DNA from: Nakamurella lactea DSM 19367 | GTDB lineage: Bacteria; Actinomycetota; Actinomycetes; Mycobacteriales; Nakamurellaceae | Direction of reading: 5' to 3' | Assembly: GCF_000426645.1 (NCBI RefSeq) | Contig: NZ_AUFT01000007.1 | Coordinates: forward strand, 248,001 to 312,000 | Length of the DNA stretch: 64,000 nucleotides | Part shown: positions 3,779-64,000 of the stretch, piece after piece | How the letters are laid out: every line of letters starts with the position of its first letter | Numbering within the stretch: the first letter of the stretch is position 1 | Made by a program: the position numbers and the translations under genes | Notes under the pieces: generated by a model | Databases searched by the model: none | Told to the model about the DNA's origin: nothing | The model's input: the letters and a program-made list of their open reading frames with translations, nothing else

Positions 3779-3845
3779 TGGTCCGGTACCTCCGGTCGAG
3801 CGTCATTGGTCGGGGCCGGCGAGTGACCCGCCGGGTGGTGGAAGG

Positions 3846-4475: not shown

Positions 4476-4520
4476 ATCCGCTCCTTTGAGCATGTCTGGC
4501 TGAGTACGATCGTTCGTGGC

Positions 4521-4544
4521 GCTCAAATGAGCATCCATGTGCTC
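4521..4544. promoter_or_regulatory. Candidate SorC operator cluster (inverted repeats)
   Basis: Two overlapping dyads lie in the divergent gap between the SIS/transporter operon and the SorC regulator. One is GCTCA-AA-TGAGC at 4521-4532; the other is GAGCA-N6-TGCTC at 4529-4544. Both use the same GAGCA/TGCTC half-site found again at 4624-4637. SorC-family regulators usually bind such sites in their own divergent promoters; binding here is inferred. Confidence 0.5.
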
Positions 4545-4623
4545 GAATGGGAGCAACCTCGGAACCATAGATCGGCAGTCGAGCGAGCGTCAAGACCAAT
4601 GAGGAATCAGATGACACTCAATG

Positions 4624-4637
4624 TGCTCAGACGAGCA
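4624..4637. promoter_or_regulatory. Candidate SorC operator (third GAGCA dyad)
   Basis: The dyad TGCTC-AGAC-GAGCA lies about 90 bases upstream of the chosen SorC-family start and repeats the half-site of the cluster at 4521-4544. It could be a second operator allowing looping or autoregulation. This is inferred from repeat structure and position only. Confidence 0.45.
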
Positions 4638-4724
4638 ATCCGATAGGTTGCCCGCCGGCGGCGCACTGTGTCACAGTTGCGAGCGGTCGACGCCGAGGGT
4701 GCCGGCGTACCGAGGGGAGCTGCC

Positions 4725-7720: not shown

Positions 7721-7790
7721 CCGTCACCTCGCTTTCGCCATGTCACTCATTGAATGCCGCGGGCGGCGGGAAACATTGCAAGAGCGCGCG

Positions 7791-8666: not shown

Positions 8667-8825
8667 TCCGATCAGTGTTCCACCCGGGTCCGACAGTGTC
8701 CGGGTCTTTTCGGCGGCGGCCATCTCCCCAGCATGGATCCCCGCGGGATCGTGTGGGTGGTGCTGGCAATACCCGGATCAGCGGGCACTCCCGACTTCGT
8801 CGCGAGCGCACGCAGGCTCGAACTC

Positions 8826-10265
8826 ATGACCACCATCGCCCCAGCAGGCACCACCGGCGCCGCAGCGCCAGGCACGAATCCGCCCGGAACCAAATCGACC
8901 GCCGTGCTGGCGACCTTGCTGGTCGGCCAGTTCATGGGAGTCCTCGACACCTCGATCGCCAACGTCGCCGCACCGACCATCGGCGTCGAGCTGCGCACCA
9001 CGGGTGCTCAGCTGCAACTGATCGTCTCCGGCTACCTGATCAGCTACGCCGTACTGCTGATCACCGGCGCCCGATTGGGCGATCGGATCGGTCACGGCCG
9101 GATGTTCCGGTTCGGCGCCGCGTTCTTCACGCTGATGTCGCTGGCCTGCGGATTGGCACCGAACGGCCCGACCCTGATCGTCTTCCGGGTGCTGCAGGGC
9201 GCCGGCGCCGCAATGATGGCGCCGCAGGTGATGAGCCTGATCCAGCGGCTGTTCGGCGGTGGACATCGAGCGCGCGCCCTGAGTCTGTACGCCGCGGTCA
9301 ACTCGTGCGGCATCGTCGTCGGCCAGGTGCTCGGCGGGGTGCTGGTGAGTGCCAACCTGTTCGGGTCGGGCTGGCGGCCGGTGTTCCTGGTGAATGTGCC
9401 GATCGGCGCTGCGTTGCTGTGGCTGGCCGCCCGCCGGCTGCCGGCGGAGTCCGGCGACCCCGCGCGTCGGATGGATCTGCCGGGCGTCGGCGCGTTGTCC
9501 GTCACGGTGGCCGCCTTGGTGATCCCGCTGGTTCTCGGTAACGAGCTCGGTTGGCCCACCTGGAGCTGGATCGTCTTGGGCGGCAGCGTGATCGCTTTCG
9601 TGGGCTTCGTGCTGATCGAACGTTCGGTGGCTGCCGCCGGTGGTGCGCCGCTGGTGTCGGCCCGGGTGCTGCGGTCGCCGGGTCTGGCCCCGGCCGCCGT
9701 CTCGATGATGATCGGGATGGCGGTCTACGCCGGCTACCTCTTCTCGATGGCGCTGCATCTGCAGTCCGGGCTCGGCCTGTCGGCTGTCCGGACCGGATTG
9801 ATGTTCTCTCCCATGGCGATCGGGTTCGGCGCAGTCGGCCTGCTGTGGCGGCGACTGCCGGCCAGGTGGCATGTCGCGATCATCCCGGTCGGTCTGACGA
9901 TCGCCGCCCTCGCCTACGCCGCGTTGGTCCCGCTGCTCGCGGACGGGCACACCGGGCCGTGGCTGGAACTGAACCTGCTGGTGCTGGGATCGGCGACCGG
10001 GCTTGCGTTTTCGCCGCTGTTCACCGTTGCGCTGGCCGAGGTGAAGTTGACCGACGCGGCCGAGGCGAGCGGCCTGATGACCACGGTGATGCAACTCGGT
10101 CAGGTGATAGGAGTGGCCACCATCGGCACCCTGTTCCTGTCCCGACTGGACGGCGCCGGCCCGCAGGCGTCATCGGACGCGATGGGAATCACCGGCTGGG
10201 TGCTCGGGTTCGGAACGCTGGTGGCCGCGGGGATCAGCGCCCTGTTGCTGCGCCGCCGCCGGTGA
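8826..10265 (+). CDS. EmrB/QacA-type MFS drug exporter
   Basis: A 479-residue membrane protein with about 14 predicted transmembrane segments. It shows the family features GQFMGVLDTSIANVA (motif D1, helix 1), GARLGDRIGHGRMF (motif A between helices 2 and 3), and a proline/glycine-rich motif C region (AAVNSCGIVVGQVLGG). It should expel drugs or small toxic molecules using the proton gradient. The ATG at 8826 leaves about 30 polar residues before helix 1. Being divergent from the MmyB-family regulator suggests ligand-induced efflux. Confidence 0.9.
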   Translation: MTTIAPAGTTGAAAPGTNPPGTKSTAVLATLLVGQFMGVLDTSIANVAAPTIGVELRTTGAQLQLIVSGYLISYAVLLITGARLGDRIGHGRMFRFGAAFFTLMSLACGLAPNGPTLIVFRVLQGAGAAMMAPQVMSLIQRLFGGGHRARALSLYAAVNSCGIVVGQVLGGVLVSANLFGSGWRPVFLVNVPIGAALLWLAARRLPAESGDPARRMDLPGVGALSVTVAALVIPLVLGNELGWPTWSWIVLGGSVIAFVGFVLIERSVAAAGGAPLVSARVLRSPGLAPAAVSMMIGMAVYAGYLFSMALHLQSGLGLSAVRTGLMFSPMAIGFGAVGLLWRRLPARWHVAIIPVGLTIAALAYAALVPLLADGHTGPWLELNLLVLGSATGLAFSPLFTVALAEVKLTDAAEASGLMTTVMQLGQVIGVATIGTLFLSRLDGAGPQASSDAMGITGWVLGFGTLVAAGISALLLRRRR

Positions 10266-10270
10266 CGATC

Positions 10271-10374
10271 CGGGACAACCCTGCTACGCCGTCGAGGTTG
10301 CAGGCGTAGCGGGGTTGTCCCGCCGGGTGGCGTAGCGGGGTTGTCCCGCCGGGTGGCGTAGCGGGGTTGTCCCG
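10271..10374. repeat. GTAGCGGGGTTGTCCCG tandem repeat with inverted copy, between convergent genes
   Basis: Two full 26-base units (10303-10328, 10329-10354) and one partial unit (10355-10374) begin GGCGTAGCGGGGTTGTCCCG. A 20-base inverted copy with one mismatch lies at 10271-10290, so the transcript can fold into a strong stem with the first unit. The array fills the whole gap between the stops of two convergent genes, so it may end transcription from both sides. A single further copy occurs at 29593-29612. Confidence 0.85.
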
Positions 10375-11751
10375 TCAGCCGACGATGCCCTGGGACCTGG
10401 CCTTGGCCAACCAATCCGGGAACTCGCTGAGCAGCAGCTGGTAGAGCTGGGCGTCGTCCAGTGCGTCGACGTCCTTCACCGGGAAGAACCCGACGTTGTC
10501 GACGACCCGGCCTTCCATGTCGTCCAACTTCTCCAGGATGCCGAACGCGCCGGCCTTGCCGATCCCGACGAACTGCCAGAAGGCAGGCAGGGCAGCGGCT
10601 TTCACGATCAGATCGGTGATCGGCTTCTTCCGGTGGAACCCGCCGTCGGTGAAGAACAGCACCAGCGTCGGCATCGGGTCGCCGACGGTGAGGGAGCCGA
10701 TGATCTCGGTGAGGATCGGGATCTCGTCGTTGACCCCACCGATCCGCCGGTAGTCGATGCCGCCGTGCTTCCCGGACAGGTGCACGTACTCGGCGATCCA
10801 TTCGTCCAGCTGCGCCACCTGCAGATCCGGCAGCTTGAAGAAACTCTCGGCGTACAGATAGCACTCCAACGAGCCGTCGTCGTCGAGTTGGATGGCCACC
10901 GGCACCATCCGCTCGACCACCCGATGCACCACGCCCTTCTTGTACTCGCGGCTCATCGACCCGGTCTTGTCCAGCACCAGCACCACCCTGGCCCGTAAGC
11001 CGGTCGCGTTCTTGGTGAGCAGCACCTGGTGCACGGCATTCTTGCGCAGGTCCAGTTGCTGCCGCTTGACCAGCGACAGCTTCTCCTCGCCGGGCACGGA
11101 TCGGGGACCTTGCGCCGGTGCGGGGGCCGTCGGCGCGGCCGGTTCCGGCACCACGGCGGGCCCGGGGCTGACGGGAATCGCCGCCACCGGCGGCGCGGCG
11201 GGCGCGGTGGGCACCGGCGGTGTGACCGATGGAGCGGCGGCCGGCGGCTCGGGTGTGGGCTCCTCGACCTGCACGCCGTACTCCCGGGCGAGCGCTGCCA
11301 GCCCGGCGTCCCAGCCGGCGGAGACGTTGCGCAGCTTCCAGCCGTCACCGCGGCGGTAGATCTCGACCAGGATCGCGGCGCGCTCGGTGGTCAGCCCGGT
11401 GGCCGGCGCCGAGTGCTGCTGGCCCTGCGACACCGTCGCCGCGAGACCGGCGATGCCGGACAGCGAGCCGCCGACGCTGTCGTCCAGCGCCACCGACACC
11501 ACCAGCGTCGTCACCGCAGCCGGCACCCCGGTCAAACAGACCCGGACGCCGCCAGGCCCGGTGAGCTCGACCGCGCCCTCGGGTGAGCGCGGCTGATTGA
11601 AGAACACCATGTCGGCGTCGCTGCGTACCTTCCCGTCAGCCCCGATCTGGAAGACCAGCAGATCCACCGATCCGGGCGCGGCGCCGGTCACCGCGACCTC
11701 AAGGTCGGACGAGCTCAGGAGGATGTTGGCGCCGCGGTCGAGTGTGCTCAC
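10375..11751 (-). CDS. TerD-domain and VWA-domain (TerF-like) protein
   Basis: A 458-residue cytosolic protein. The N-terminal third (residues about 1-180) is a TerD-like calcium-binding domain (LDRGANILLSSSD at the start, DLLVFQIGADG). A Pro/Ala-rich linker of about 80 residues follows, then a TerF-type von Willebrand A domain with a metal-site motif DKTGSMS and a later FFTDGG. Families of this kind belong to tellurite-resistance/stress modules, where they are proposed to sense chemical stress at membranes. No other ter genes are nearby. The GTG at 11751 gives a natural TerD start; a second GTG lies one codon upstream. Confidence 0.85.
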   Translation of the reverse strand: MSTLDRGANILLSSSDLEVAVTGAAPGSVDLLVFQIGADGKVRSDADMVFFNQPRSPEGAVELTGPGGVRVCLTGVPAAVTTLVVSVALDDSVGGSLSGIAGLAATVSQGQQHSAPATGLTTERAAILVEIYRRGDGWKLRNVSAGWDAGLAALAREYGVQVEEPTPEPPAAAPSVTPPVPTAPAAPPVAAIPVSPGPAVVPEPAAPTAPAPAQGPRSVPGEEKLSLVKRQQLDLRKNAVHQVLLTKNATGLRARVVLVLDKTGSMSREYKKGVVHRVVERMVPVAIQLDDDGSLECYLYAESFFKLPDLQVAQLDEWIAEYVHLSGKHGGIDYRRIGGVNDEIPILTEIIGSLTVGDPMPTLVLFFTDGGFHRKKPITDLIVKAAALPAFWQFVGIGKAGAFGILEKLDDMEGRVVDNVGFFPVKDVDALDDAQLYQLLLSEFPDWLAKARSQGIVG

Positions 11752-52596: not shown

Positions 52597-53871
52597 TCAG
52601 CCGAGCCGGCCGGCGACCACCACACCGTCCTGCACGACGGCCCGCAGCCGGGACTCGGCCAACACCGAGATGTCCTGCAGCGGGTCTTCGTCCAGCACGA
52701 CCAGATCGGCGGCCGCCCCAGGAATGATCTGTCCCAGTTCGCCTTCCCGCTGCAGCACCGTCGCCGCGACGGTGGTCGCCGCCCGGATCACCTCGAGCGT
52801 CGGCTGGTGCTCGGCGCGAATCGCGAATTCGCCGGCCTGGTGCCGCTGCATGGCGCCGAGCAGGTCGGAGCCGTAGGCGGGATTGAGGCCGGCGGCGTGC
52901 AGCAACCGCAGCGCGCTGATCCCGCCGTCGAGTACCGCGCCGACCTTCGCCACCGACTCCGCCGGCAGCCCCAGACCGGCGCCCTCGTCGGCCAGTGCCC
53001 GGTAGGTCACCAGGTTCATCGTGACGAAGGCGTTGTGTCGCTTGACGAGTGCCACGGTCTCCTCGTCGATCAGGTTGCCGTGCTCGATGGTGCGAACCCC
53101 GCAGGCCAGCGCCCGCTGGATGGCTCGCGGGGTGTACGCATGGGCCGCCACGTACCGGTTGGCCGCCTCGGCCTCCTCGACCACGGCCCGAATCTCGTCG
53201 AGAGAGTACTGGGTGGAATCGATCCGGTCGGTCGGCGAGGCGACGCCGCCGCTCACCATGATCTTCAGGTGGTGGGCGCCCGTGCGCAGTTCGTCGCGGG
53301 CGGCCAGCCGGACCGCGTCGACGCCGTCGGCGATCCGGCTCAGGCTCGGACAGCACCGGTGCTCGACGTCGGTGGTGCGGCCGGGGCCGCGGGCGTCGCC
53401 GTGGCCGCCGGTCTGGGACAGCGCCCTGCCGGCGAAGAAGATCTTCGGCGCCCGCAGCAGTCCCTCACGCTGGGCCCGGTGAATGCCGAAGTCGGCGCCG
53501 GCCATGTCCCGGACCGTGGTGAAGCCGCGATCGAGCATGTCGCTCATCAGCCGGGCGGCGCCGAACATCACGTACGAGGTCGGGGTGTCCATCAGTTGCG
53601 ACAGATCCGCGTCGACCGCCAGCACGTGCACGTGGCAGTCGATCAAGCCGGGCAGCACGAACCTGCCGGTCAGGTCGACGCGCTCGCCGGCAGGAGCGGC
53701 GCCCGCCGGGGCCGGCTCGGTGATCTCGACGATCCGGCCGCCGGTCAGTCGGATATCGGCGGTGCGCCAGGTCCCGGCCGCCACGTCCAGGAATCGCGCA
53801 GCGCCGAGGGTGATGTCGGCCGCCCTGGGCGTCGGGTGGACGGAACTGCTGCTGAGGTCGGGGTGCGTCAT
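52597..53871 (-). CDS. Metal-dependent amidohydrolase (imidazolonepropionase/prolidase-like)
   Basis: A 424-residue amidohydrolase, the last gene of the leftward operon. The metal-binding set is present: HVHVL (HxH, after PGLIDC), HHLKIMVSGG with a lysine that may be carbamylated, VAAHAYT, TIEHGN and YGSDLL. Family members hydrolyse amide bonds of cyclic or dipeptide substrates. The ATG at 53871 has AGGAAGG at good distance; an alternative ATG at 53901 adds ten residues. Substrate unknown; context suggests a late step in degradation of an N-containing compound. Confidence 0.85.
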   Translation of the reverse strand: MTHPDLSSSSVHPTPRAADITLGAARFLDVAAGTWRTADIRLTGGRIVEITEPAPAGAAPAGERVDLTGRFVLPGLIDCHVHVLAVDADLSQLMDTPTSYVMFGAARLMSDMLDRGFTTVRDMAGADFGIHRAQREGLLRAPKIFFAGRALSQTGGHGDARGPGRTTDVEHRCCPSLSRIADGVDAVRLAARDELRTGAHHLKIMVSGGVASPTDRIDSTQYSLDEIRAVVEEAEAANRYVAAHAYTPRAIQRALACGVRTIEHGNLIDEETVALVKRHNAFVTMNLVTYRALADEGAGLGLPAESVAKVGAVLDGGISALRLLHAAGLNPAYGSDLLGAMQRHQAGEFAIRAEHQPTLEVIRAATTVAATVLQREGELGQIIPGAAADLVVLDEDPLQDISVLAESRLRAVVQDGVVVAGRLG

Positions 53872-53918
53872 CGGGGCCTTCCTGGCGGCTGATCGCTGCA
53901 TCGTGGAGCGCCCAGATC

Positions 53919-54845
53919 TTAGTCGGTCGGGGGGATGCCGAAGGCGACCCGCAGGTGCCCGGCGACGATGCCGCGAACCCGCTCTCGTGCTTGCCACGTG
54001 CCGGCGGCGACATGCGGGGTGAGCCGGACGGAGTCGAGTTCCCGCAGGGGATGATCGGCCGGGAGCGGCTCCTCGGCGAAGACGTCCAGCACGGCGGTGG
54101 CCGGGCGCCCGATTCGCAGCGCCGCAACCAGATCCGGCTCGACCACCAAGGCGCCTCGCGCGGTATTGATGAGGATGCTGTCGGCCGGCATGCTGGCCAG
54201 CAGCGGCGCGTCAACCATTCCCGCGGTGGCGGGGGTCAGCGGCGCGTGCAGGCTCACCACATCGCTGGCTGCGAACAGCTCGGGAAGACTGACCCAGCCC
54301 GGGTCGGTGCCGTCGGCGGGTGGCCGGGAAGTGGTGTGCAGCACGGTGGTCCCGAACCCGTTGAGCCGGCGCTCCACCGCCCGGCCGATCGCGCCGTGGC
54401 CGACCAGCCCGACAGTGACGGATCCCAGTTCTCGCCCGAGAGGCTGTGCCACCCAACCGGTTTCCCGCAGATCCCGGGGTCGGCGGAGCGCGTCGATGAT
54501 CGCCGCCACGGTCCAATCGGCGACGGCGTCGGCGTTGTAACCGGCGGCGTTGACGATCCGCAGGCCGCGTTCGCCCGCGGCGGTCACGTCCAGCGACACC
54601 TCGATCCCGACCGCCGGCACCACCACCAGTCGACACCGGTCCAGCTGGCCGATCGCCGGCGCATCCAACACCAGCCGGCGGGCCGCGTCGGCGATCACCA
54701 CGTCCGCCCGACGCAGCGCCGAATACGCCGCGGTGACGGGGAGCTCACGTTCGGCCACCACCACCTCGACCGCACCGGGAACCCACTGGCGCACCAGCTC
54801 ATCGGGATAGTCGGACAGGCAGACCAGCACCCCGCCGTGACTCAC
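53919..54845 (-). CDS. D-2-hydroxyacid dehydrogenase
   Basis: A 308-residue NAD(P)-dependent dehydrogenase. It has the Rossmann loop GLVGHGAIGRAV and the catalytic triad Arg (NTARGAL), Glu (FAEEPLP) and His (LTPHVAAGT). It should reduce a 2-keto acid to, or oxidise, a D-2-hydroxy acid. The GTG start at 54845 overlaps the stop of the enolase-superfamily gene, so the two are coupled. It is a little shorter than typical members at the N-terminus, where the catalytic domain begins. Confidence 0.88.
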   Translation of the reverse strand: MSHGGVLVCLSDYPDELVRQWVPGAVEVVVAERELPVTAAYSALRRADVVIADAARRLVLDAPAIGQLDRCRLVVVPAVGIEVSLDVTAAGERGLRIVNAAGYNADAVADWTVAAIIDALRRPRDLRETGWVAQPLGRELGSVTVGLVGHGAIGRAVERRLNGFGTTVLHTTSRPPADGTDPGWVSLPELFAASDVVSLHAPLTPATAGMVDAPLLASMPADSILINTARGALVVEPDLVAALRIGRPATAVLDVFAEEPLPADHPLRELDSVRLTPHVAAGTWQARERVRGIVAGHLRVAFGIPPTD

Positions 54846-56029
54846 AGGATCCGTCGCGATCGCACCGCCGACTCGTCCAGCGCCATCCCGAGCCCCGGGC
54901 GGGTGGGAGCCCGGAGGTAACCGTCGACCGGCACCACCGGCTCGGCCAGGAAGTGTTGATACAGCGGCATCAGCCGCACCAGGTACTCCTGCTGCTGGAC
55001 CAACGCCGGCGAGCTGGCGAACGACAAAGCGCTGTTGCACTGCATCGATTGCCCGTGGAAGACGGCGGTGCCGCCGGCCGCGGCGATCAGCGCCAGGATC
55101 TTCCAGGTCTCCGAGATCCCACCGGCCCAGTGCGGGTCGGGCTGATGCACATCCAGCACCGCGCTCCGCAGCAACTCCTGGTAGCCCCACCGGGTGTATT
55201 CGTGTTCGCCGCCGGCGATCTGCACCTCGGACGGCAACCGGTGGCGCAGCGTCCGGTAGCCGTCGATGTTGTCGGCCAGCAGCGGCTCCTCGATCCAGCC
55301 GAGGCGCAGGCCCTGACACTCGCGGGCGACCCGGACGGTGAACTCGACATCCCAGGAACACCAGGCATCCAGCATGATCTCCGCCTGCGGGCCGGCACCC
55401 TCCCGGGCGGCGGCCACCAGTTCGACCACCCGGTCGACGCCGGCCCGTCCGTCCTCCGGTCCCCAGCGCGGAAACCACTTCACTCCGGAGAAGCCCGCGG
55501 CCACCAGCTCCCGGCTCCGCTCGCGGACGGCCGATGGCTCCAGGCTGTCGCCGAGCGTGGACGCGTAGGCCGGGATACGGTCGCGGGTCGGGCCGCCCAG
55601 CAACCGGTGGACCGGCTGGCCCAGCAGCTGACCCCGCAGATCCCACAACGCGCAGTCGACCGCAGACAGCGCAACCATTCCGGCACCGCGCCGGCCATGG
55701 ATGGAGGAACGATAGGCCAGATCCCACAGGTACTCCGACGCCATCGGATCGGCGCCGATCAGCAGCGGCCGCAACATCGAGTTGATCAGAAAGGCCGACT
55801 CGGCGGAGATCTGCATCGTGGTGCCGATCAGCCCGTCGTCGGTCCGGATGTGCAGCGCGATGGAGGTCACGACCACCTCGTCCGGTCGGTCCGCCGGCGG
55901 GAACACCTCCGGCCCGAGGGCGCGTCGGTCCGGATAGATGTCGGCCGGCCGGCGCAGCCGGTCGGCGAAGACGCCGCCGGGAGCCGACCGGACCCCGGTG
56001 TACTCGACGCATTCGACGGCGGTGATCAC
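54842..56029 (-). CDS. Enolase-superfamily sugar acid dehydratase (rhamnonate dehydratase-like)
   Basis: A 395-residue enzyme of the mandelate racemase/muconate lactonising group. Metal ligands are Asp (DAWCSWD), Glu (WIEEPL) and Glu (AGGEHEYTRWG), and a likely catalytic histidine is in VFHGQSMQ. HGRRGAGMVALSAVD in the front half and HQPDPHWAGG match the L-rhamnonate dehydratase subgroup, which removes water from a sugar acid to give a 2-keto-3-deoxy acid. This product class fits the D-2-hydroxyacid dehydrogenase encoded next. It overlaps both neighbours by 4 bases. Confidence 0.85.
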   Translation of the reverse strand: MITAVECVEYTGVRSAPGGVFADRLRRPADIYPDRRALGPEVFPPADRPDEVVVTSIALHIRTDDGLIGTTMQISAESAFLINSMLRPLLIGADPMASEYLWDLAYRSSIHGRRGAGMVALSAVDCALWDLRGQLLGQPVHRLLGGPTRDRIPAYASTLGDSLEPSAVRERSRELVAAGFSGVKWFPRWGPEDGRAGVDRVVELVAAAREGAGPQAEIMLDAWCSWDVEFTVRVARECQGLRLGWIEEPLLADNIDGYRTLRHRLPSEVQIAGGEHEYTRWGYQELLRSAVLDVHQPDPHWAGGISETWKILALIAAAGGTAVFHGQSMQCNSALSFASSPALVQQQEYLVRLMPLYQHFLAEPVVPVDGYLRAPTRPGLGMALDESAVRSRRIL

Positions 56030-57291
56030 GGTCGACGTGCCTCCTCGGATCGTTGCTGACGGGTCTGTGCGGACCAGGCTGCCACCGGACCGGTGACGGT
56101 GCAGCGGGTCTCGGCGACCAGTCGGCCGCGTCGCCAGACCCGGCGGCCCGCGCCGGCCGCGGCGAGCGGGCTGCCCGCCTCCGGCGTGCGCAGCGCGACC
56201 AGGTCGGCGACCGACCCGGCGACCGGGCCGGCGGACGGCCGGTCCATCACCCGTCGGCCGGCGTCCGTGACGAGCCGTATCGCCTGCGCTGCGTCCAGGC
56301 CCGCGGCCAGCGTCAGCAGGCCGGCGGTGTCCAGCGGGTCGAGCCGGCCGGTGGGATTGAACGGATCCTGCACGTTGTCGCCGCCGGCGGCCACCTCGAC
56401 GCCGGCGGCCAGCAAGCGATCCAGCGGCGGCAGTCCGCCGGTCCGGGAACCGGCGCGCTGCAAATACAGGTTCGTGGCCGGCAGCGTCACCACGCGGATG
56501 CTCTTGCGTGCCAGCAGTTCGGCCACTTCGTCCACCACCGACCCCGGATGTTGGCCCAGCGAGACGCAGTGGCTGGCGGTGACCGGGATCGAGTCGGGTG
56601 CCTGTTCGGCCAGCCGGCGCAGCAGGAACACCGACGGATCCATGGTCTCGTCCAGGTGCAGGTCGATCGGCACGCCCCGGTCGACCGCGACGTCGAGCAG
56701 CGCGTCCAGCGCCGCCTCCGGTTCGGCCTCCAGTGACGGGTTGCCGCCGACCACGTCGGCGCCGGCGTCCAGTGCGTCGCGCAGCAACCGGGTGTGGCTG
56801 TGCCAGTGCTGATCCGCTGCCGGGCCACCGAGGTGCGCGACGATCTGCAGATCGATCAGCGCGGCCGCCTGCTCGCGGACCGTCGCGATCGCCTCGACGA
56901 ACCTGGTGCCGGCCAGCCGGCCGCAGCCGATGTGCACCCGGGCGGTCGTCACGCCGTTGCGGACCAGGGCGGCAACCCCGTGACGGGCCCGGCCGATCAC
57001 GTCCGGAGTCGGCGCGGCGAGCAGCCGCTGGTAGCTGGTCATCGCGCCGCGCAGGGAGCCGTCCGACCAGCCCCGGTCCGCGGTGAACACCTTGTCCAGG
57101 TGCAGGTGTGGCTCCACGAAGGCACCGAGGAGCAGGTCGCCGGACAGGTCGACGCAGGGCGTGGCGGCGGCCACCGCCAGCCCGGGGCCGACCGCCGCAA
57201 CCAGGCCCCCGGTGATCAGCACGTCCGCACGGGAGCCGTCGAGCAGCCGGGCATTGCGCAGCACCAGTTCGCCGGCCGCCGGTGCCGTCAT
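56026..57291 (-). CDS. Cytosine deaminase-type amidohydrolase
   Basis: A 421-residue amidohydrolase of the cytosine deaminase subgroup. The signature EPHLHLDKVF (HxHLDK), then DLHLDETMD with His and Glu, TASHCVSLG and the acid in AGGDNVQDPFNP reproduce the CodA metal and proton-shuttle residues. It may deaminate or hydrolyse a pyrimidine-like, cyclic-amidine or guanidine substrate rather than cytosine. The ATG at 57291 overlaps the permease stop by 4 bases, and its own stop overlaps the dehydratase start. Confidence 0.87.
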   Translation of the reverse strand: MTAPAAGELVLRNARLLDGSRADVLITGGLVAAVGPGLAVAAATPCVDLSGDLLLGAFVEPHLHLDKVFTADRGWSDGSLRGAMTSYQRLLAAPTPDVIGRARHGVAALVRNGVTTARVHIGCGRLAGTRFVEAIATVREQAAALIDLQIVAHLGGPAADQHWHSHTRLLRDALDAGADVVGGNPSLEAEPEAALDALLDVAVDRGVPIDLHLDETMDPSVFLLRRLAEQAPDSIPVTASHCVSLGQHPGSVVDEVAELLARKSIRVVTLPATNLYLQRAGSRTGGLPPLDRLLAAGVEVAAGGDNVQDPFNPTGRLDPLDTAGLLTLAAGLDAAQAIRLVTDAGRRVMDRPSAGPVAGSVADLVALRTPEAGSPLAAAGAGRRVWRRGRLVAETRCTVTGPVAAWSAQTRQQRSEEARRP

Positions 57292-58115
57292 CCCTTCACC
57301 CCGCCGCCGGCGATGGCGGTGACGTATCGCTGCAGGTAGGCGAAGACGATGAGCACCGGGATCATCACCACGACCCCGGCGGCCAGTAGCCGGCCCCAGT
57401 CGGTGGTGTACTCGCCGATCAGCGAGTTCAGCCCCACCGATAATGTCCACTTCTTGTCCGTGTCGATGAAGGTGTTGGCGTACAGGAACTCCTCCCACAC
57501 CTGGATGACGACGAAGACCGCGGCGGCCATCACGCCGGGCATGGCCGGCGGCAGCACCACCTTCCAGAGCGCCCGGAACCGCGAGCAGCCGTCGATCATC
57601 GCTGCCTCCTCGATCTCCACCGGGACGGCCAGGAAGTAGTTGCGCAGCAGCCAGATGCAGAACGGCAGTGCGAACGACACGTACACCACGGTCAGCCCCA
57701 CCAGGGAGTTGAGCAGGTTCAGCGACTTCACCGTCGTGTACAGCGGGATCACCAGCATCACGGCCGGGAACATCTGGGCGGCCACCACGATCAGCAGCAT
57801 GCCGCGGTTGCCGACGAAGGTGAACCTGGCCAGGCCGTATCCGGCCAGGATGGCCAGGAACAGGGCGATCAGCGTGGTGCCGACGGCAACCATCGCCGAG
57901 TTGAGGAAGTATCGGAAGAAGTTGGTGTCCAGCAGTGCGGTGTAGTTACCGAAGTAGAGGTGGCTGGGCAGCAGCCGCTGGTCGACCCCGTTGAGTTCGG
58001 CCGGGGACTTGAACGAGGACACGAACATCCACCCGAACGGGACCAGTGCCACCAGCACCAGAACGGCCGCGCCGAGGTGACTCCAGACGCTGCTGTGAGT
58101 GCGGTCGGTCGTCAC
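57288..58115 (-). CDS. Carbohydrate-type ABC transporter permease (MalG/LacG type)
   Basis: A 275-residue permease of the CUT1 group with six helices. The coupling motif EIEEAAMIDGCSRFRALWKV contains the EAA signature. The GTG at 58115 overlaps the stop of the other permease (GTGA); it places about ten residues ahead of helix 1. It pairs with the MalF-type permease upstream and the substrate-binding lipoprotein. No ATPase is encoded in this operon. Confidence 0.92.
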   Translation of the reverse strand: MTTDRTHSSVWSHLGAAVLVLVALVPFGWMFVSSFKSPAELNGVDQRLLPSHLYFGNYTALLDTNFFRYFLNSAMVAVGTTLIALFLAILAGYGLARFTFVGNRGMLLIVVAAQMFPAVMLVIPLYTTVKSLNLLNSLVGLTVVYVSFALPFCIWLLRNYFLAVPVEIEEAAMIDGCSRFRALWKVVLPPAMPGVMAAAVFVVIQVWEEFLYANTFIDTDKKWTLSVGLNSLIGEYTTDWGRLLAAGVVVMIPVLIVFAYLQRYVTAIAGGGVKG

Positions 58116-59056
58116 GACCGCCTCCCCTTGCTCCGGCCCTCGACGACGAAGAAGTACACCACGGCGATGATCAGCATCAGGACGAAGATCACCACCGATG
58201 CGGTTGCGGCCATCCCGAGGTCGAGGTCCTGGAAGGCGGTGCGGTACGCGAGGGTGGTGAGAATGTCGGTGCTGCCGACCGGTCCGCCGCGGGTGAACAA
58301 CCAGATCCCGTTGAAGTTGTTGATCGAGCCGGAGATCGTGGTCAGGCAGACCAGGGCCAGCGAGGTTCGGATGCCGGGCAGCGTGATGTGGAACCAGCGT
58401 CGGAAGGCGGAGGCGCCATCGACGGTGGCGGCCTCGTACTGCTCGTGCGGGATCTGCTGCATGCCGGCCAGCAGAATGACTGCGGCGAACGGGGTCCACT
58501 TCCAGGCCCCGATCACGATCAGGGTGGGCAGCGCGGTGGCGGTCGAGGCCAACCAGGCCGGCGGGGCCTCCAGCAGGCCGCTGTTGCGCAGCAGGGCATT
58601 GATCGGACCCTGCGCCGGGTCGAGCAGGAACCGCCAGATCAGCGCCACGATCACGCTGGGCACCACCCACGGCACGATGATGCTGGTCCGGACGAATCCG
58701 CGGGCGAAGAGCTTCTTGTTCAGGATGTTCGCCACGAACAGCGCCAGACCGACCTGAGTGACCAGCGAAGCGATCGCCCAGACAGCGGTGCGACCGAGTA
58801 CCCCGAGAAACTCCTCGGAGCCGATCAGGTCGACGTAGTTGGAGAACCCGGCGAAGCTGTCCTTGCCCGGCGCGGCCAGCGAGGAGTGCAGGAAGCTGGT
58901 GCCGATCGCCGAAATCACCGGGTAGCCGATGATGAGCGCCATCACCACGAATGCCGGGGCGATGTACAGGACGGGTTCCCACCGGCGCCTGCGCCGCCGA
59001 ACCCTGGTGCCCGCACCGGGTGTCCGCGCCGCAGGCGGTGCCTGCAGGATGCTCAT
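58112..59056 (-). CDS. Carbohydrate-type ABC transporter permease (MalF/LacF type)
   Basis: A 314-residue CUT1 permease. An Arg-rich N-terminus (RVRRRRRRWEPVLYIAPAF) leads into six helices, with coupling motif EQYEAATVDGASAFRRWFHI. The ATG at 59056 was preferred to one 18 bases upstream because AGAGGAG lies 6 bases ahead of it. It follows the binding-protein gene after a 96-base gap that holds a hairpin. Confidence 0.92.
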   Translation of the reverse strand: MSILQAPPAARTPGAGTRVRRRRRRWEPVLYIAPAFVVMALIIGYPVISAIGTSFLHSSLAAPGKDSFAGFSNYVDLIGSEEFLGVLGRTAVWAIASLVTQVGLALFVANILNKKLFARGFVRTSIIVPWVVPSVIVALIWRFLLDPAQGPINALLRNSGLLEAPPAWLASTATALPTLIVIGAWKWTPFAAVILLAGMQQIPHEQYEAATVDGASAFRRWFHITLPGIRTSLALVCLTTISGSINNFNGIWLFTRGGPVGSTDILTTLAYRTAFQDLDLGMAATASVVIFVLMLIIAVVYFFVVEGRSKGRRS

Positions 59057-59108
59057 CTTCGGCTCCTCTGCCACAACTCGGCACGGTGTCGTGCCCTGGT
59101 GATCTGTT

Positions 59109-59133
59109 GCCCCGCCGGATCGTCCGGCGGGGC
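59109..59133 (-). terminator. Perfect GC hairpin between binding-protein and permease genes
   Basis: GCCCCGCCGGA and its complement form an 11-base-pair stem with a 3-base loop (TCG). It lies 19 bases past the binding-protein stop and ahead of the permease gene. In ABC importers such structures reduce read-through or stabilise the upstream message, which gives more binding protein than permease. This role is inferred. Confidence 0.65.
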
Positions 59134-59152
59134 CCGTCGCACTACTGGGTCG

Positions 59153-60472
59153 TCAGCCCTTGAGCTTGTCGACGGAGGCGGCGGCAGCATCGGTGAGCGC
59201 CGTCGCCGGGTCCTTCTTCCCCTGGATCACCGAGTCCCAGGCGTCGGCCATCACGCCCCATTCGACACTGCCCCAGGTCGGCAGGGTGGGCCGGGCCTTC
59301 GCGTCGGGCAGTTGCTGGACGAACACCTTGCGGATCGGATCCTCTTCGGCCCAGGCCGAATCGAGCACGTCCGTGCGGCCGGGAATGTTGTTCGTCGCCT
59401 GGATCGCACCCACCTGATCGGCGCTGGTGATCCACTCGACGAACTTCCATGCCGCGTCCGTCTGCGCGGTCTTCGCCGAGACGCCGATGGTCGCCCCACC
59501 GAGGATGGTGGCGGCCTGCTTGCCCTTCGGCAGCGGTGCGACCTCCCAGTTCAGGTCCGGGTTGCCCTTGGTGATCGACGGGGCGCCCCACGGGCCGGTG
59601 GCCATCATCGCGACCTTGCCCTGCACGAACGGGGCGACGTACTGGTCCCAGGAACTGGTGACGGCGACGAACTCCGGCGGCGCGACCTTGTGCTTGATCG
59701 CCAGGTCTGCGTAGAACTGGAATGCCTCCTGGCCGGCGTCGTCGGCGAATGTCGGGGTGATCCCGTCGTCGCCGACGATGGTGCCGCCGTTTTGCCACAG
59801 CCATGGCCAGAACAGGAACGAGCCGTAGCCGTTGGCGCCCATCATGTAGCCGTAGCTGCCGCCGCCGGTCAGCTCGACGGCCGCCGCCTGCAGTTCGTCC
59901 CACGTCTTCGGAGCCTCGACGCCGGCCTTGCCCAGCAGGTCCTTGTTCACGTACAGCACGACGTCGTTGGCGTAGTACGGCACGCCGAACTGCTTGTCCT
60001 GGAACGAGGACGACTTCCAGACGTCGGCAACGAACTGGTCCTTGATCGAGCCGGCCCTGCTGGTCAGGTCCGCCAGGATCTGGCCGGCCGCGAGCTGCGG
60101 GACGGACGACGAATCGACGATGGCCAGATCCGGACCGGCGCCGCCACCGATGGTGGTGGTCAGTTTGGCGGTCAGATCGGTGGTCGGAATCCCTTGGACG
60201 TCAACGGTGATGCCGTTGGCCGAGCCGTAGTCTGCTGCCGCCTTGGACAGGCCCGTTGTCTTGTCGGCGGTCAGCGCGGCGTTCGCCCAGATGGTCAGTG
60301 AGCCGCCGCCACCGCCGCCACCAGAGGCGGCAGCAGTGCCGCCGGCGGCCGGGGTGTCGGTGACGGCGCTGGTGCCGCAGGCCGCGAGAGCGAGCGCGGC
60401 TGCGGAGCCACCGGCCAGGCCGAGGAACCGGCGGCGGTCCAACCGGAGTGACTCCCGGTACGTGGGTGCCAT
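59153..60472 (-). CDS. Substrate-binding lipoprotein of sugar-type ABC importer
   Basis: A 439-residue extracellular solute-binding protein of family 1. The N-terminus combines a Tat-like LDRRRFLGLAGG stretch with a lipobox (LAACG), then an Ala/Gly-rich linker, and the binding domain starting GSLTIWANAALTAD. VPYYANDVVLYVNKDLLGKAG is typical of sugar- and polyol-binding members. AAGGAG lies 7 bases before the ATG at 60472. It is the most strongly expressed-looking part of the operon, flanked by two hairpins. Confidence 0.92.
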   Translation of the reverse strand: MAPTYRESLRLDRRRFLGLAGGSAAALALAACGTSAVTDTPAAGGTAAASGGGGGGGSLTIWANAALTADKTTGLSKAAADYGSANGITVDVQGIPTTDLTAKLTTTIGGGAGPDLAIVDSSSVPQLAAGQILADLTSRAGSIKDQFVADVWKSSSFQDKQFGVPYYANDVVLYVNKDLLGKAGVEAPKTWDELQAAAVELTGGGSYGYMMGANGYGSFLFWPWLWQNGGTIVGDDGITPTFADDAGQEAFQFYADLAIKHKVAPPEFVAVTSSWDQYVAPFVQGKVAMMATGPWGAPSITKGNPDLNWEVAPLPKGKQAATILGGATIGVSAKTAQTDAAWKFVEWITSADQVGAIQATNNIPGRTDVLDSAWAEEDPIRKVFVQQLPDAKARPTLPTWGSVEWGVMADAWDSVIQGKKDPATALTDAAAASVDKLKG

Positions 60473-60490
60473 GCGTTTCTCCTTCGTTTC

Positions 60491-60512
60491 GGGTCCGCAG
60501 CGCTGCGGACCC
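60491..60512. promoter_or_regulatory. Perfect 22-base palindrome upstream of the binding-protein gene
   Basis: Bases 60491-60512 are an exact inverted repeat with no spacer (arms GGGTCCGCAGC and complement). It lies between the amidohydrolase stop at 60522 and the binding-protein start at 60472, 18 bases upstream of the start. It may be an operator, a transcript end for the upstream genes, or an mRNA processing structure. No regulator gene is in the visible part of the operon. Confidence 0.55.
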
Positions 60513-60521
60513 ATCCGTGTG

Positions 60522-61697
60522 TCAGTTGCCGGCCCGCTGGGCGATCCGGCTGGTCGACTCGCGCGCGGCGCGCACGAGGTCCTGCTCCTCGGCTGATACC
60601 AGCCGACCGTCACGAACGACCCGCCGACCGTCGATCGTGACGTCCCGAACATCCTTCGGTCCTGCCCGGTGCACCAGCGCCCACTCGGGATCGGCGAGCG
60701 GCTGGGTGGATGACGACCAGAGATCGATCGTCACCGCGTCGTGGTCGGCGAAGTCAGCTGCGATGCCGTTGGCCAGCAAGGCATCACGGCCGTCCTGGGA
60801 GGCCATCCGCAGAGCGGCGGCCGTCGGCAACACCCCGGGGCGACCGGCCGCCTGGCCCTGGACCGCGATCGCCTGCCGCATCTCGTGCAGCAGGCTCTCC
60901 ATGCCGTCCACCCCGAGGGTGACGCGGACCCCGGCGGCCTGCAGGTCCACCACCCTGGCGACCGGCTTGGCCAGCTTCGCGTGGTTGCTGGGGCAGTAGA
61001 CCACCGTCGTCCCGGACTCGGCGAGCAGCCGGATCTCGCTGTCGGTCAGGCAGATCGCGTGGACCAGGACGGTGCGGGGGCCGAGGAATCCCTGGTCCGC
61101 CAGCAGTTCCACCGGTCGGCGGCCGTGCTCGTCCACCGACTGGCGGACCTCGGCGTGGTTCTCGGCGATGTGGGTGTAGAGCCCGATGCCGAGCTCGGCC
61201 GCCGCCACGGCCGCTCGACCGTAGTCGTCGGGGATGTTCTGCCGCAGCGACACCGGCGCCAGGAACATCCGGCCGGGACCGAGTCGCGGCAGCGCGGATT
61301 CCGCCAGTTCGGCGATCTGGTCCACCGAACTGCACAGCTGCGGCAGCCCGCGGGTCATGATGCCCAGCGCGACGATGCCGCGCAGTCCCACCTGGCGATA
61401 GCCGGCCAGTGTGGCGTCCAACAACTCCGGCCGCAGCGGATAGAGATGGTCGACCACCGTCGTGGTGCCGGCCAGTACCTGGCGGGCGGCGGCCAGCGCG
61501 GTGAGGGCCTGGTAGTCCTCGGGTTCGGCTACCGACTGAGCCGCACCGGCCATCGCGACCACCTCGGCCAACGGGGCGCTGTCGGAGGCCCGGCTCGGCG
61601 CCAGGAACGAGCGCAGGTGATCGTGCATGTTGATCAGACCGGGAACGGTGATCGACCGCTGGTCCTCGCCCAGCACCGCTGCGGGAGCGGAGGTCAT
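60522..61697 (-). CDS. TrzA/AtzA-type amidohydrolase (N-heterocycle deaminase-like)
   Basis: A 391-residue amidohydrolase of the chlorohydrolase/deaminase subgroup. The metal site reads MHDHLRS (HxH), LYTHIAENHAEV, VHAICLTD and LGVDGMES; the substrate loop is YCPSNHAKLAKPVARV. Known relatives dechlorinate or deaminate triazines, guanine and related rings. This one is shorter at the N-terminus than usual (about 20 residues before the HxH). The ATG at 61697 overlaps the opine-dehydrogenase-like stop by 4 bases. Confidence 0.86.
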   Translation of the reverse strand: MTSAPAAVLGEDQRSITVPGLINMHDHLRSFLAPSRASDSAPLAEVVAMAGAAQSVAEPEDYQALTALAAARQVLAGTTTVVDHLYPLRPELLDATLAGYRQVGLRGIVALGIMTRGLPQLCSSVDQIAELAESALPRLGPGRMFLAPVSLRQNIPDDYGRAAVAAAELGIGLYTHIAENHAEVRQSVDEHGRRPVELLADQGFLGPRTVLVHAICLTDSEIRLLAESGTTVVYCPSNHAKLAKPVARVVDLQAAGVRVTLGVDGMESLLHEMRQAIAVQGQAAGRPGVLPTAAALRMASQDGRDALLANGIAADFADHDAVTIDLWSSSTQPLADPEWALVHRAGPKDVRDVTIDGRRVVRDGRLVSAEEQDLVRAARESTSRIAQRAGN

Positions 61698-62818
61698 CGG
61701 GAGTTCCACCAGCCGTCGTCGGTCGCCGCCAACAGCCCGTCCCGGCCGCGGCCGGCCAGCCCGAAGGTGGCCAGCGAGCGGCCCTCGGCGCGGAAATCGG
61801 TACCGGTGGCCACCGAGGCGAGCTGGATGACGGCGTCAATGGTCGGGGTTGGCACGCCGATCTCCTGGCCGATGGACGACATCAGGCACAGTGCGAACGG
61901 CACATCCTCTGTCACGTACCGGCTTTCCAGGGCGTGCGGGCCGGTGCCGAAGGTGGAGTCGGCGAAAGTGGACGACTGCAGGGTGGCGTGCAGGTCGCCC
62001 AGCACCTTCGGCGCGAATCCCTGCGCGACCAGGAACTCCTCGTAGCCGCGCAGCTCGGTGAAGCCCAGGCTGCGGCGGATATCGACCAACTCGCTGTCGA
62101 TGCCGCCGATGATCCGGCACACCGCAGGGCTGGCTCCGCTGCCCCACAACAGGAACTTGCCCGGTCCGGCATCGATCGCGCCCAGGTTGCACAGGATCGG
62201 CGGCACGTGGTCGATGGCGTTGAAGTTGAGCAGGATGGTTTCCAGCACGTTCTGCACCGGCGACACGGTCGGCCACAGCCGCAGCGCGGTCTCGACAGCG
62301 GGGTTGTCCACGCTCGGGATGCCGGCGACCAGGGTGCCGCCCGACTTGCGGGACGCCGTCACCAGACCAGGTGCGCGGACCCGGGTTCCGTACGGCAGGC
62401 TGTTCAGTTCGGCCATCGCCAGGTCGACCTCGCGCCCGCTGCCGGCCAGTGCGGCGCCCAGCGCCAGGCAGCCGCCGCCCTCGCCGGCGAAGATCACCTG
62501 AGTGCCGTCCTGCGCATGCTCGGCCAGTAGCGCGGCGAAGGTGTCGTGCCCGAAGGCCGGCACGCACACCACGATGATCGCTGAGCGCCTGATCGCCGCC
62601 GCCGGATCCCGGTCCGCCCTGGCGGGAGATTCGGTGATGCCCTGCCACGGCGACTTGAGCCGGACCACGCCCGACTCGGCGATGGCATCGACATTGGCCG
62701 GGAACTGCGGCAGGTCCGAGACCACCACATCGATCCCGGCCTGGGCGAACTCGTTCGCGCAGGACAGCGCCCCGGCACCGGAGCCGAGAATCAGGACGGT
62801 ATCGGGCAGGGTGCTCAT
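61694..62818 (-). CDS. NAD/NADP octopine/nopaline dehydrogenase-family protein
   Basis: A 374-residue oxidoreductase. The N-terminal Rossmann domain starts LILGSGAGALSCANEFA, and the C-terminal helical domain carries NFNAIDHVPPILCN, matching the catalytic histidine region of opine dehydrogenases. Such enzymes oxidise or form the C-N bond between an amino acid and a keto acid or sugar. Its place in this operon suggests release of an amine and a keto acid from an opine-like substrate. Start and stop both overlap neighbours by 4 bases. Confidence 0.85.
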   Translation of the reverse strand: MSTLPDTVLILGSGAGALSCANEFAQAGIDVVVSDLPQFPANVDAIAESGVVRLKSPWQGITESPARADRDPAAAIRRSAIIVVCVPAFGHDTFAALLAEHAQDGTQVIFAGEGGGCLALGAALAGSGREVDLAMAELNSLPYGTRVRAPGLVTASRKSGGTLVAGIPSVDNPAVETALRLWPTVSPVQNVLETILLNFNAIDHVPPILCNLGAIDAGPGKFLLWGSGASPAVCRIIGGIDSELVDIRRSLGFTELRGYEEFLVAQGFAPKVLGDLHATLQSSTFADSTFGTGPHALESRYVTEDVPFALCLMSSIGQEIGVPTPTIDAVIQLASVATGTDFRAEGRSLATFGLAGRGRDGLLAATDDGWWNSR

Positions 62819-63831
62819 CGGACGATTTCCTTTGCCAGGTCAGTCAGTTGGGTGCGGTAGCCGGCGGCGTCGCTGCCGCCGACGCTGATGATCACTTCGT
62901 CGACGCCGCGTTGCTCGAGTTCGGCCAGCCCATCGGCGATCCGGCCGGCCGAGCCGGCCAGCCCGAACGCCTTGGCCATGTCGTCGGTGACCAGGGCGGC
63001 GGCTGCGGCGCGGTCGCCGGACCGCAGCGCCGTTCGGGCAAGGCCGACCTGCTCCGGATCGAGTCCGTACACGGGGATCAGCTCGTCGGCGTAGGCGCCG
63101 GCCGCCATCGTCAGGCAGCGCGGCCGCAGTCCGGCCCAGGCCCGGGTCTCGTCGCCGTCGACCTCGACGTCCAGCATCAGCGCGAGCGAGATCGATCGGC
63201 CGCTCGAGCCGGGATCGCTGGTGCCGTCGGCAATCCCGGCGGCGGCCTGGGCGGCGCCGGCTGCGACCCGGTCGCGGACGAAGTCGATGTGCGCCGCCGA
63301 GATGCCGTGGGTGATGACGCCATCGGCGATCCGGCCGGCGAGTTGCAACATCTTCGGGCCGCGCGCCGCCAGGTACACCGGGCCGTCAGCGGCCGCCCAA
63401 CGCAGTTGCGAGCCCTTGGCGCTGAACGTGTCACCGCTGACCTCGGCCCGGCCGGCGGTCAGCTCGCGGACGATCGCGGTGGCCTCCTCGGTGATCCGCA
63501 GCGGCCGCGGCGACGCGATCCCCAGCTCGCTGGCGAACTCGTACCCGCCGACGCCCAGCCCGAGGATGAACCGATCCGGTCCGATCTCCCGAAGGGTGGC
63601 GGCCAGGCTGGCCAACAGCGTGGGATGACGCAGCAGTGGCGACATCACCGCGGTGCCGAGGGTGAGGCCGTTGGTGGCCGTCATCATCAAGGCCAGCGCG
63701 GCCGCGGCCTCCCGGTGGAAGTAGTGGTCGGCGATCCAGGCGCTCTGGTAGCCGAGATCCTCGATGAGCCGGGCGGTCTCGGCCGCGTCGACGATCGACT
63801 GGGTCGGCCGGACGGTCACTCCGAGTCTCAT
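62815..63831 (-). CDS. Luciferase-like monooxygenase-family (LLM) oxidoreductase
   Basis: A 338-residue F420- or FMN-dependent oxidoreductase with the TIM-barrel fold of bacterial luciferase. RLGVTVRPTQSIVDAAETA begins the first strand; DHYFHREAAAALALMMTATN and FILGLGVGGYEFAS are typical of the F420-dependent branch. The reaction cannot be inferred alone; some FMN relatives, such as RutA, open pyrimidine rings. The ATG overlaps the stop of the molybdenum-hydroxylase FAD-subunit gene. Confidence 0.88.
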   Translation of the reverse strand: MRLGVTVRPTQSIVDAAETARLIEDLGYQSAWIADHYFHREAAAALALMMTATNGLTLGTAVMSPLLRHPTLLASLAATLREIGPDRFILGLGVGGYEFASELGIASPRPLRITEEATAIVRELTAGRAEVSGDTFSAKGSQLRWAAADGPVYLAARGPKMLQLAGRIADGVITHGISAAHIDFVRDRVAAGAAQAAAGIADGTSDPGSSGRSISLALMLDVEVDGDETRAWAGLRPRCLTMAAGAYADELIPVYGLDPEQVGLARTALRSGDRAAAAALVTDDMAKAFGLAGSAGRIADGLAELEQRGVDEVIISVGGSDAAGYRTQLTDLAKEIVR

Positions 63832-64000
63832 CGGTGGGTGCTCCTGATCTGTGCTGATGGTGTTGATGGTGTTGACGGCGGAACGTCGCCGAGTACTTCG
63901 CGCAGCAGACCGGCCGCGCAGCGACGGCGGTAGTCCGCCCCGGCCCGCAGGTCGTCGATCGGCCGGATATCCGCGGAGACCGCCGCAGCTGCCTGCGCTG
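63828..64000 (-). CDS. FAD-binding subunit of a molybdenum hydroxylase (partial, C-terminus only)
   Basis: Only the last 56 or so residues are visible, from the right edge to the stop at 63828. The sequence SADIRPIDDLRAGADYRRRC followed by LLREVL matches the C-terminus of CoxM/XdhB-like FAD subunits of carbon-monoxide dehydrogenase or xanthine dehydrogenase-type enzymes. The large molybdopterin and iron-sulfur subunits are probably to the right of the window. Its stop overlaps the LLM gene by 4 bases. Coding in this frame stays open to the edge. Confidence 0.75.
   Translation of the reverse strand, partial: AQAAAAVSADIRPIDDLRAGADYRRRCAAGLLREVLGDVPPSTPSTPSAQIRSTHR

Follow-up and report, generated by a model that had tools for sequence, protein, structure and literature searches.

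Known purine systems combine a molybdenum hydroxylase (Mo-hydroxylase) with an aminohydrolase of the TrzA/SsnA type, and ROK-regulated operons for alpha-glucoside uptake are known from actinobacteria. Both resemble in part an operon of Nakamurella lactea DSM 19367, which we analysed in a stretch of 64,000 nucleotides (hereafter the window; G000:C5:248001-312000 of the 5.82 Mb genome) and in the 23 kb that follow it. With the purine systems the operon shares a three-subunit Mo-hydroxylase and a TrzA-type amidohydrolase, and its counterpart in Occultella has a gene for the maturation factor XdhC beside it; however, it matches no curated model for such systems and adds a luciferase-like (LLM) flavin oxidoreductase, an opine-type dehydrogenase (ODH), a glycoside hydrolase (GH) and sugar-acid enzymes. 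With the alpha-glucoside operons it has in common a ROK gene, a MalE-type binding protein, a pair of permeases with no gene for an ATPase, and the GH, but its enzymes are mostly of oxidative or deaminating rather than glycolytic type. The glucosylglycerate hydrolase MhGgH (Protein Data Bank (PDB) entry 5ohc) is 49% identical to the Nakamurella GH and has the same catalytic, glucose and direct glycerate contacts, whereas in the latter His78 is replaced by Gln and its gene heads a ROK-controlled operon of 14 genes with Mo-hydroxylase and amidohydrolases; no such context was found among the listed matches of openly licensed PubMed Central (PMC) papers on glucosylglycerate and its hydrolase. The N-(1-D-carboxylethyl)-L-norvaline dehydrogenase (PDB 1bg6) belongs to the same family as the Nakamurella ODH over nearly the full length of the latter (residues 7-365 of 374, E 8.8e-34), which differs in being tied to the LLM and TrzA-type genes, as seen in 17 of 19 related loci.

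The operon is real, conserved, separately regulated and larger than first seen, and it brings known enzyme families together in a combination unmatched to any described pathway. We read it, with the balance about even for and against, as a substrate-specific catabolic island for an alpha-glucoside with an N-containing, probably N-heterocyclic, hydroxy-acid aglycone, for which purine-, pterin- and opine-like compounds are candidates. The initial annotation had not recognised a described pathway in the gene set, and we likewise found no description of it in searches of openly licensed PMC papers: none turned up that joins octopine/nopaline dehydrogenases with amidohydrolases, or with xanthine dehydrogenase and luciferase-like proteins, and none on the gene set among the matches on glucosylglycerate or on pterins. 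Within the matching excerpts of that literature, glucosylglycerate and xanthine dehydrogenase occurred together only in a SAR11 paper, in unrelated mentions, and no matching gene set appeared among the pterin matches listed, nor in the excerpts of PMC9513972 and PMC13259868.

Genes were called from an open reading frame (ORF) listing with translations and by codon usage, with the related loci as training set. Ten complete genes occupy the minus strand at 52597-63831 and a further one (63828-64000) is cut by the window end, exactly as had been described. The cut gene encodes the FAD subunit of the predicted Mo-hydroxylase, the Mo and Fe-S subunits of which were found beyond the window end, and the remaining family assignments (LLM, opine-type dehydrogenase, three amidohydrolases, dehydratase, D-2-hydroxyacid dehydrogenase and sugar-type importer) were confirmed by Pfam. 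The operon continues to coordinate 68906, 4.9 kb past the window (extended coordinates are those of L007, the stretch continuing beyond the window end, plus 52000). Its 14 genes run, 5' to 3', in the order GH, Mo, Fe-S and FAD subunits (L-S-M), LLM, ODH, TrzA-type amidohydrolase, binding protein, two permeases, CodA-type amidohydrolase, acid-sugar dehydratase of the mandelate racemase/enolase superfamily (MR), D-2-hydroxyacid dehydrogenase and a third amidohydrolase. That most genes overlap by 4 bases, as first claimed, was slightly too strong, although the tight spacing stands: with the chosen starts, the ten in-window junctions comprise five 4-base overlaps, one 16-base overlap and gaps of 11, 47, 49 and 96 bases, and 4-base overlaps make up 7 of the 13 junctions of the whole operon. 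These overlaps, together with one promoter, suggest a single operon, and the early idea of one catabolic operon is supported with its continuation beyond the window.

Scanning the genome collection with ODH as bait gave 19 related loci (L021-L039), the content of which was determined by tblastn and gene calls; given the bait, the counts measure linkage of ODH to the other genes. The trio LLM-ODH-TrzA (the core) is contiguous in 17 of them (L021-L031, L034-L039), and the nearly full set is present in 11 (L021-L031), so that the absence of conserved linkage, named at first as a refuting outcome, was not what we observed. The Mo-hydroxylase trio was found in 12 loci (L021-L031, L033), the pair of MR and D-2-hydroxyacid dehydrogenase genes also in 12 (L021-L032), and GH in nine (L021-L029). 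L032 is cut by the contig end before LLM, and in L033 the Mo-hydroxylase, LLM and TrzA-type genes adjoin one another, while three ODH copies lie about 9 kb from them; these copies are in tandem (7754-11119), near genes for an AMP-ligase, a CodA-type protein and an NMT1-like importer. The nearly full set was seen in Pseudactinotalea, three Occultella, Cellulomonas timonensis, Amycolatopsis taiwanensis, three Spongiactinospora, Haloactinopolyspora and Phytoactinopolyspora, from the orders Micrococcales, Pseudonocardiales, Streptosporangiales and Jiangellales. The inner gene order differs in L026-L031, and since L026-L029 have the MR and dehydrogenase genes reversed and placed between GH and the Mo subunit, one inherited gene order alone cannot explain the linkage. 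We rejected a chance assemblage, since the nearly full set is found in 11 loci with this differing order, while in kin ODH had only one other match among 100 genomes (at E 1e-30, 31% identity) and GH none in 16 congeners.

The regulation of the operon deserves separate attention. The gene for the ROK regulator lies back to back with the operon and faces GH across the promoter. Alignment of the rok-GH intergenic regions (window, L021-L029) revealed a common TTGAC, 17 bases, TTANGTTC and then an inverted half-site. Each of these ten ROK-type loci has a single copy of the promoter core TTGAC-N17-TTANGTTC, and ten other loci have none; a search of nine further stretches (394,208 bases over both strands) gave one copy, at the Occultella glacieicola promoter itself (L055). 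The full palindrome TTANGTTC-N7-GAACNNAA, which overlaps the presumed -10 region of the operon promoter, is intact in six of the ten (that of the window and L021-L025), whereas L026-L029 have a degenerate form of it; across the 5.82 Mb genome it has a single location, read on both strands (reversed-pattern control, 0). By sequence, the locus thus has the ROK domain and the conserved palindrome at the target promoter that characterise a ROK repressor regulon, while a Pfam search of the window's ROK protein for a helix-turn-helix domain found none. The pattern looks like a dedicated regulator with a single target, and the palindrome is a predicted operator. Downstream of the ROK gene lies a gene for an FAD_binding_4 oxidase; because a 41-42% identical relative also adjoins ROK in L021, L024 and L025, this oxidase may belong to the pathway.

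The first gene of the operon bears on the substrate. GH scores 610.2 bits on the NCBIfam glucosylglycerate hydrolase model NF047898, above the curated equivalog cut-off of 550, so that the guess of a glycosylated substrate, made from the window without this gene, was strengthened. Identity to MhGgH is 49-52% across the ten cluster copies (window, L021-L029). Twenty active-site positions, taken from an excerpt of PMC6608630, were compared in these copies: 18 are identical in all ten, positions 78 and 433 being variable. Both catalytic acids (Asp182, Glu419) and the residues that touch glycerate directly (Tyr36, Trp40, Tyr88, Arg216 and Tyr375) are among those kept throughout, for which reason the expected substrate of GH is an alpha-glucosyl (or mannosyl) derivative of a D-glycerate-like acid.

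The enzymes that would handle the nitrogen-containing part are recognisable by family. ODH is a clear family member, and its motif LLNFNAIDHV, the His of which is presumably catalytic, is invariant in 15 of 15 sequences. The HxH, HxxE, H and D metal-site motifs of the TrzA-type protein are kept in the alignment, in which the L030 row, translated out of frame, was disregarded. At its N-terminus this protein lacks about 35 residues that its relatives have; either the small beta domain has undergone a real deletion or the shortening is a sign of decay. No amidohydrolase, Mo-hydroxylase subunit, LLM or dehydratase of the operon passes a curated equivalog cut-off, and for this reason we infer, rather than assign, ring hydroxylation, ring opening and deamination. 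The TrzA-type protein reaches 171.1 of the 532 bits of the 8-oxoguanine deaminase model NF006055, and the CodA-type protein 165.3 of the 403 bits of the cytosine deaminase model NF005759. For the Mo subunit, xanthine dehydrogenase PucD scores best among the curated models (528.2 of 783.65 bits), and the subunit passes no xanthine dehydrogenase equivalog cut-off (PucD, XdhA and others). For the dehydratase, described at first as rhamnonate dehydratase-like, the superfamily is confirmed and the rhamnonate identity is not, L-rhamnonate dehydratase being its nearest curated model at a score well short of the cut-off, so that the label is true only loosely. Likeness to PucD, rhamnonate dehydratase or cytosine deaminase was dropped as a function call, all scores being far below the cut-offs. 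Among the nearest solved relatives of the importer's binding protein are 5ysb, 5ci5 and the acarbose/maltose-binding GacH.

The cofactor of LLM was approached through the F420 biosynthesis genes of carrier genomes; in drafts, a missing gene is weak evidence. CofD was above its cut-off in 12 of 14 genomes, that of the window included, and failed in those of L021 (27.7 bits) and L025 (none), with 3 of 14 controls positive; CofH was above its cut-off in 2 of 7. The genomes of the window, L022 and L030 share one pattern, CofD being present and CofH/FO synthase not found. As at least two carriers seem to be without F420, flavin mononucleotide (FMN) is a little more likely than F420, and we no longer take an F420 dependence of LLM as given.

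We propose that the solute, or a product of it, would release ROK, and that the MalE-type importer, with an ATPase encoded elsewhere, would bring the glucoside into the cell. GH would then cut alpha-glucose from the 2-OH of the D-glycerate-like acid. Mo-hydroxylase and LLM may oxidise the aglycone, ODH may split a secondary C-N bond, and the TrzA- and CodA-type enzymes may free ammonia or open the ring; the sequence of these middle steps is left unordered. MR dehydratase and D-2-hydroxyacid dehydrogenase would channel the remaining polyhydroxy acid into central metabolism.

Related loci offer variants of this scheme. In the examined stretches of L030-L032 we found no GH or CodA relatives, and a GH13 gene, homologous among the three, lies at the cluster end. 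Its product is nearest to sucrose phosphorylase (155 of 334 bits in L030, 152 in L031) and, in L030, is also near glucosylglycerol phosphorylase structures. An extra amidohydrolase in L030 (Haloactinopolyspora) reaches 545 bits against the 8-oxoguanine deaminase cut-off of 532; in L031 and L032 the corresponding position is taken by an amidohydrolase (34% and 32% identical, respectively, to the TrzA type), and a relative of the L030 enzyme (45%) is encoded downstream of the core in Streptosporangium. There (L036, L065) the core is accompanied by an IlvD/EDD dehydratase, a D-2-hydroxyacid dehydrogenase, an SDR protein, a GntR regulator and an NMT1-like importer with a weak Pfam match for its binding protein. 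The GH13 phosphorylase-type enzyme seems to stand in for GH, the IlvD/EDD dehydratase for MR, and the 8-oxoguanine-deaminase-type enzyme for CodA. Together the variants suggest three required steps, namely deglucosylation, oxidation with deamination, and polyhydroxy-acid dehydration. A further-reaching claim, which we consider unlikely, is that the substrates form an undescribed class of natural products, in which a nucleobase- or pterin-like heterocycle with a 2,3-dihydroxy acid is alpha-glucosylated at the 2-OH, and that the GgH and GH13 phosphorylase types, as well as the MR and IlvD/EDD types, are interchangeable across lineages.

In favour of an alpha-glucoside with an N-heterocyclic aglycone stand the score and conserved contacts of GH, the recurrence of the nearly full set, the apparent stand-ins, the XdhC gene beside the Occultella operon and the promoter core with its palindrome. 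Several observations weigh against it. The N-heterocyclic and opine-like nature of the substrate is drawn from enzyme families only; the Mo subunit, below every equivalog cut-off, is about equally near to CoA-reductase, aldehyde oxidoreductase and quinoline/xanthine enzymes. His78, counted among the substrate-binding residues of MhGgH in the excerpt of PMC6608630, is replaced by Gln in five of the ten GH copies, including that of the window. The same excerpt describes a closed state of MhGgH with ligands inaccessible to solvent, and since the enzyme closes over its ligands, GH may take plain glucosylglycerate rather than a bulky aglycone. Relatives of GH (46-54%) are also encoded by six of the 40 kin genomes, none of which belongs to the window's genus, and thus GH is not tied to the cluster. 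The proposed stand-ins occupy other gene positions, and the IlvD/EDD case is a single locus. Finally, in the examined flanks of L034-L039 the core occurs without GH or Mo-hydroxylase, so the sugar and nitrogen parts may be separable.

This last point leads to the alternative that we regard as a credible contender, if still on the improbable side: two modules under one ROK regulator. GH, the ABC importer, MR dehydratase and D-2-hydroxyacid dehydrogenase would import and hydrolyse glucosylglycerate for its glucose and D-glycerate, and Mo-hydroxylase, LLM, ODH, TrzA and CodA would scavenge nitrogen from another compound when it is needed. The GH contacts fit glucosylglycerate, the core is without sugar genes in the examined flanks of L034, L035 and L037-L039, and NMT1/THI5-like importers accompany it in L033 and L036; MhGgH is moreover linked to recovery from nitrogen starvation in the excerpt of PMC6608630. 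However, eleven clusters from four orders keep both parts in spite of the differing inner order in L026-L031, an alpha-glucoside-type enzyme (GH13) is present even where GH was not found, and the tight gene overlaps behind one promoter suggest one operon.

Degradation of a glycosylated or carboxyalkylated purine or pterin, in which Mo-hydroxylase would oxidise the ring, TrzA and CodA would deaminate it and ODH would remove an N-linked hydroxy or amino acid, appears to us improbable. It draws on PucD as best model of the Mo subunit, on the 8-oxoguanine-deaminase-type enzymes of Haloactinopolyspora (above the cut-off) and Streptosporangium, and on adenosine deaminase and nucleoside hydrolase genes near the core in L038 and L039 (about 4 kb from it in L038). 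In L038 these lie at 486-4687 together with PfkB kinase and Indigoidine_A genes, the latter presumably PsuG-type; the first two have relatives in L039. Pterin glycosides, in addition, are made by cyanobacteria, as stated in an excerpt of PMC13259868. Against this, none of the equivalog models of purine or pterin enzymes is passed by a protein of the operon, and genes for urate, allantoin or lumazine steps were not recognised in it. Opine catabolism, with ODH as the key step splitting a sugar-bearing N-(1-carboxyalkyl) amino acid, is very improbable: ODH is the marker by which the clusters were found and a clear member of the norvaline dehydrogenase family, but we know of no opine pathway that has Mo-hydroxylase, LLM and two deaminase-type enzymes together, and the ODH relatives on plasmids of Agrobacterium and Rhizobium reach only 24.5-25.5% identity among the matches listed (20 of 195).

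The genome of the window has a single match each for ODH and GH. In a class sample, 5 of 393 other genomes matched at 1e-40, four of them carriers also found in the collection scan. In a phylum sample the profile matched 3 of 395 others at 1e-60, and the matches had different surroundings. The more distant ODH relatives in L020, L044, L045 and L046 are likewise in other contexts, except for one 32% amidohydrolase in L044. In an unrooted tree built from a concatenation of five proteins (1838 columns, 13 rows), the cluster of the window groups with the Micrococcales clusters (support 1.000), apart from Amycolatopsis and Spongiactinospora. Tree and distribution fit an operon that has probably spread horizontally; an argument for transfer from composition was abandoned, as the G+C content of the cluster (0.708) is too close to that of its flanks (0.685 and 0.698).

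The features of the locus are compiled in the table. The third amidohydrolase, last in the operon, had no counterpart called in the 19 related loci, and tblastn at 1e-5 gave no hit for it when 13 stretches were re-tested, including the extended Occultella stretch L054, a negative limited by several stretches ending within about 1 kb of the D-2-hydroxyacid dehydrogenase gene. It was dropped as part of the conserved pathway, although with loci ending early this is not proof.

Table. Genes and sites of the Nakamurella lactea operon and its upstream neighbours (positions beyond 64000 in extended coordinates)
Feature	Position	Strand	Support or remark
Prolidase-type amidohydrolase, last gene	52597..53871 (start uncertain, up to 53997)	-	PF01979 143.8 bits; PDB 3feq 377.8 bits
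D-2-hydroxyacid dehydrogenase	53919..54830 (alternative start 54872)	-	PF02826 160.7 bits; 42-56% identical relatives in L021-L032
Mandelate racemase/enolase-superfamily (MR/MLE) acid-sugar dehydratase	54842..56029	-	PF13378 174.6 bits; L-rhamnonate dehydratase NF011968 205.4 of 393 bits
CodA/AtzC-type amidohydrolase	56026..57291	-	PF07969 89.6 bits; PDB cytosine deaminase 4r7w 112.7 bits
ABC importer permease 2	57288..58115	-	PF00528
ABC importer permease 1	58112..59056	-	PF00528
Sugar-type (MalE-like) solute-binding protein	59153..60472	-	PF01547 163.5 bits
TrzA-type amidohydrolase	60522..61709	-	PF01979 98.9 bits
Opine-type dehydrogenase (ODH; octopine/nopaline dehydrogenase family)	61694..62818	-	PF02317 118.2 bits, gathering cut-off 30
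Luciferase-like (LLM) flavin oxidoreductase	62815..63831	-	PF00296 176.9 bits
Mo-hydroxylase FAD subunit	63828-64715 (63828..64000 in window)	-	Pfam
Mo-hydroxylase Fe-S subunit	64712-65266	-	outside window
Mo-hydroxylase Mo subunit	65257-67497	-	outside window
Glucosylglycerate-hydrolase-type GH, first operon gene	67494-68906	-	outside window
Putative operator	68910-68932		between GH and ROK genes
Divergent ROK regulator	68985-70202	+	PF00480 165.4 bits
FAD_binding_4 oxidase	70222-71571 (L007 18222-19571)	+	Pfam

Other gene contexts of the clusters were recorded as well. In Occultella and Cellulomonas the cluster has a gene for an MFS transporter, as scans of L022 and L025 showed, between the CodA and MR genes, and in Occultella glacieicola the operon is followed by a second LLM gene and the XdhC gene, both on its strand. 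The core is followed by a relative of AMP-dependent acid ligases in L034, L035, L037, L038 and L039, all from metagenome-assembled genomes; in L034, L035 and L037, genes for a glyoxalase-type protein and for a second TrzA-type protein come before it. Downstream of the Spongiactinospora cluster L028 (17434-21108) is a gene of the non-ribosomal peptide synthetase type, with adenylation, carrier and condensation domains; L029 has a matching ORF.

If the alpha-glucoside reading is true, the cluster would point to a glucosylated nitrogen metabolite that is eaten via a shared pathway by actinobacteria of several orders. The binding protein, the regulator, which has one operator genome-wide, and a glycosidase whose chemistry is known would be handles for finding the compound. 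Moreover, the LLM-ODH-TrzA core, recurrent in metagenome-assembled genomes (some labelled Acidimicrobiia), would gain a function, and glucosylglycerate hydrolase a new context.

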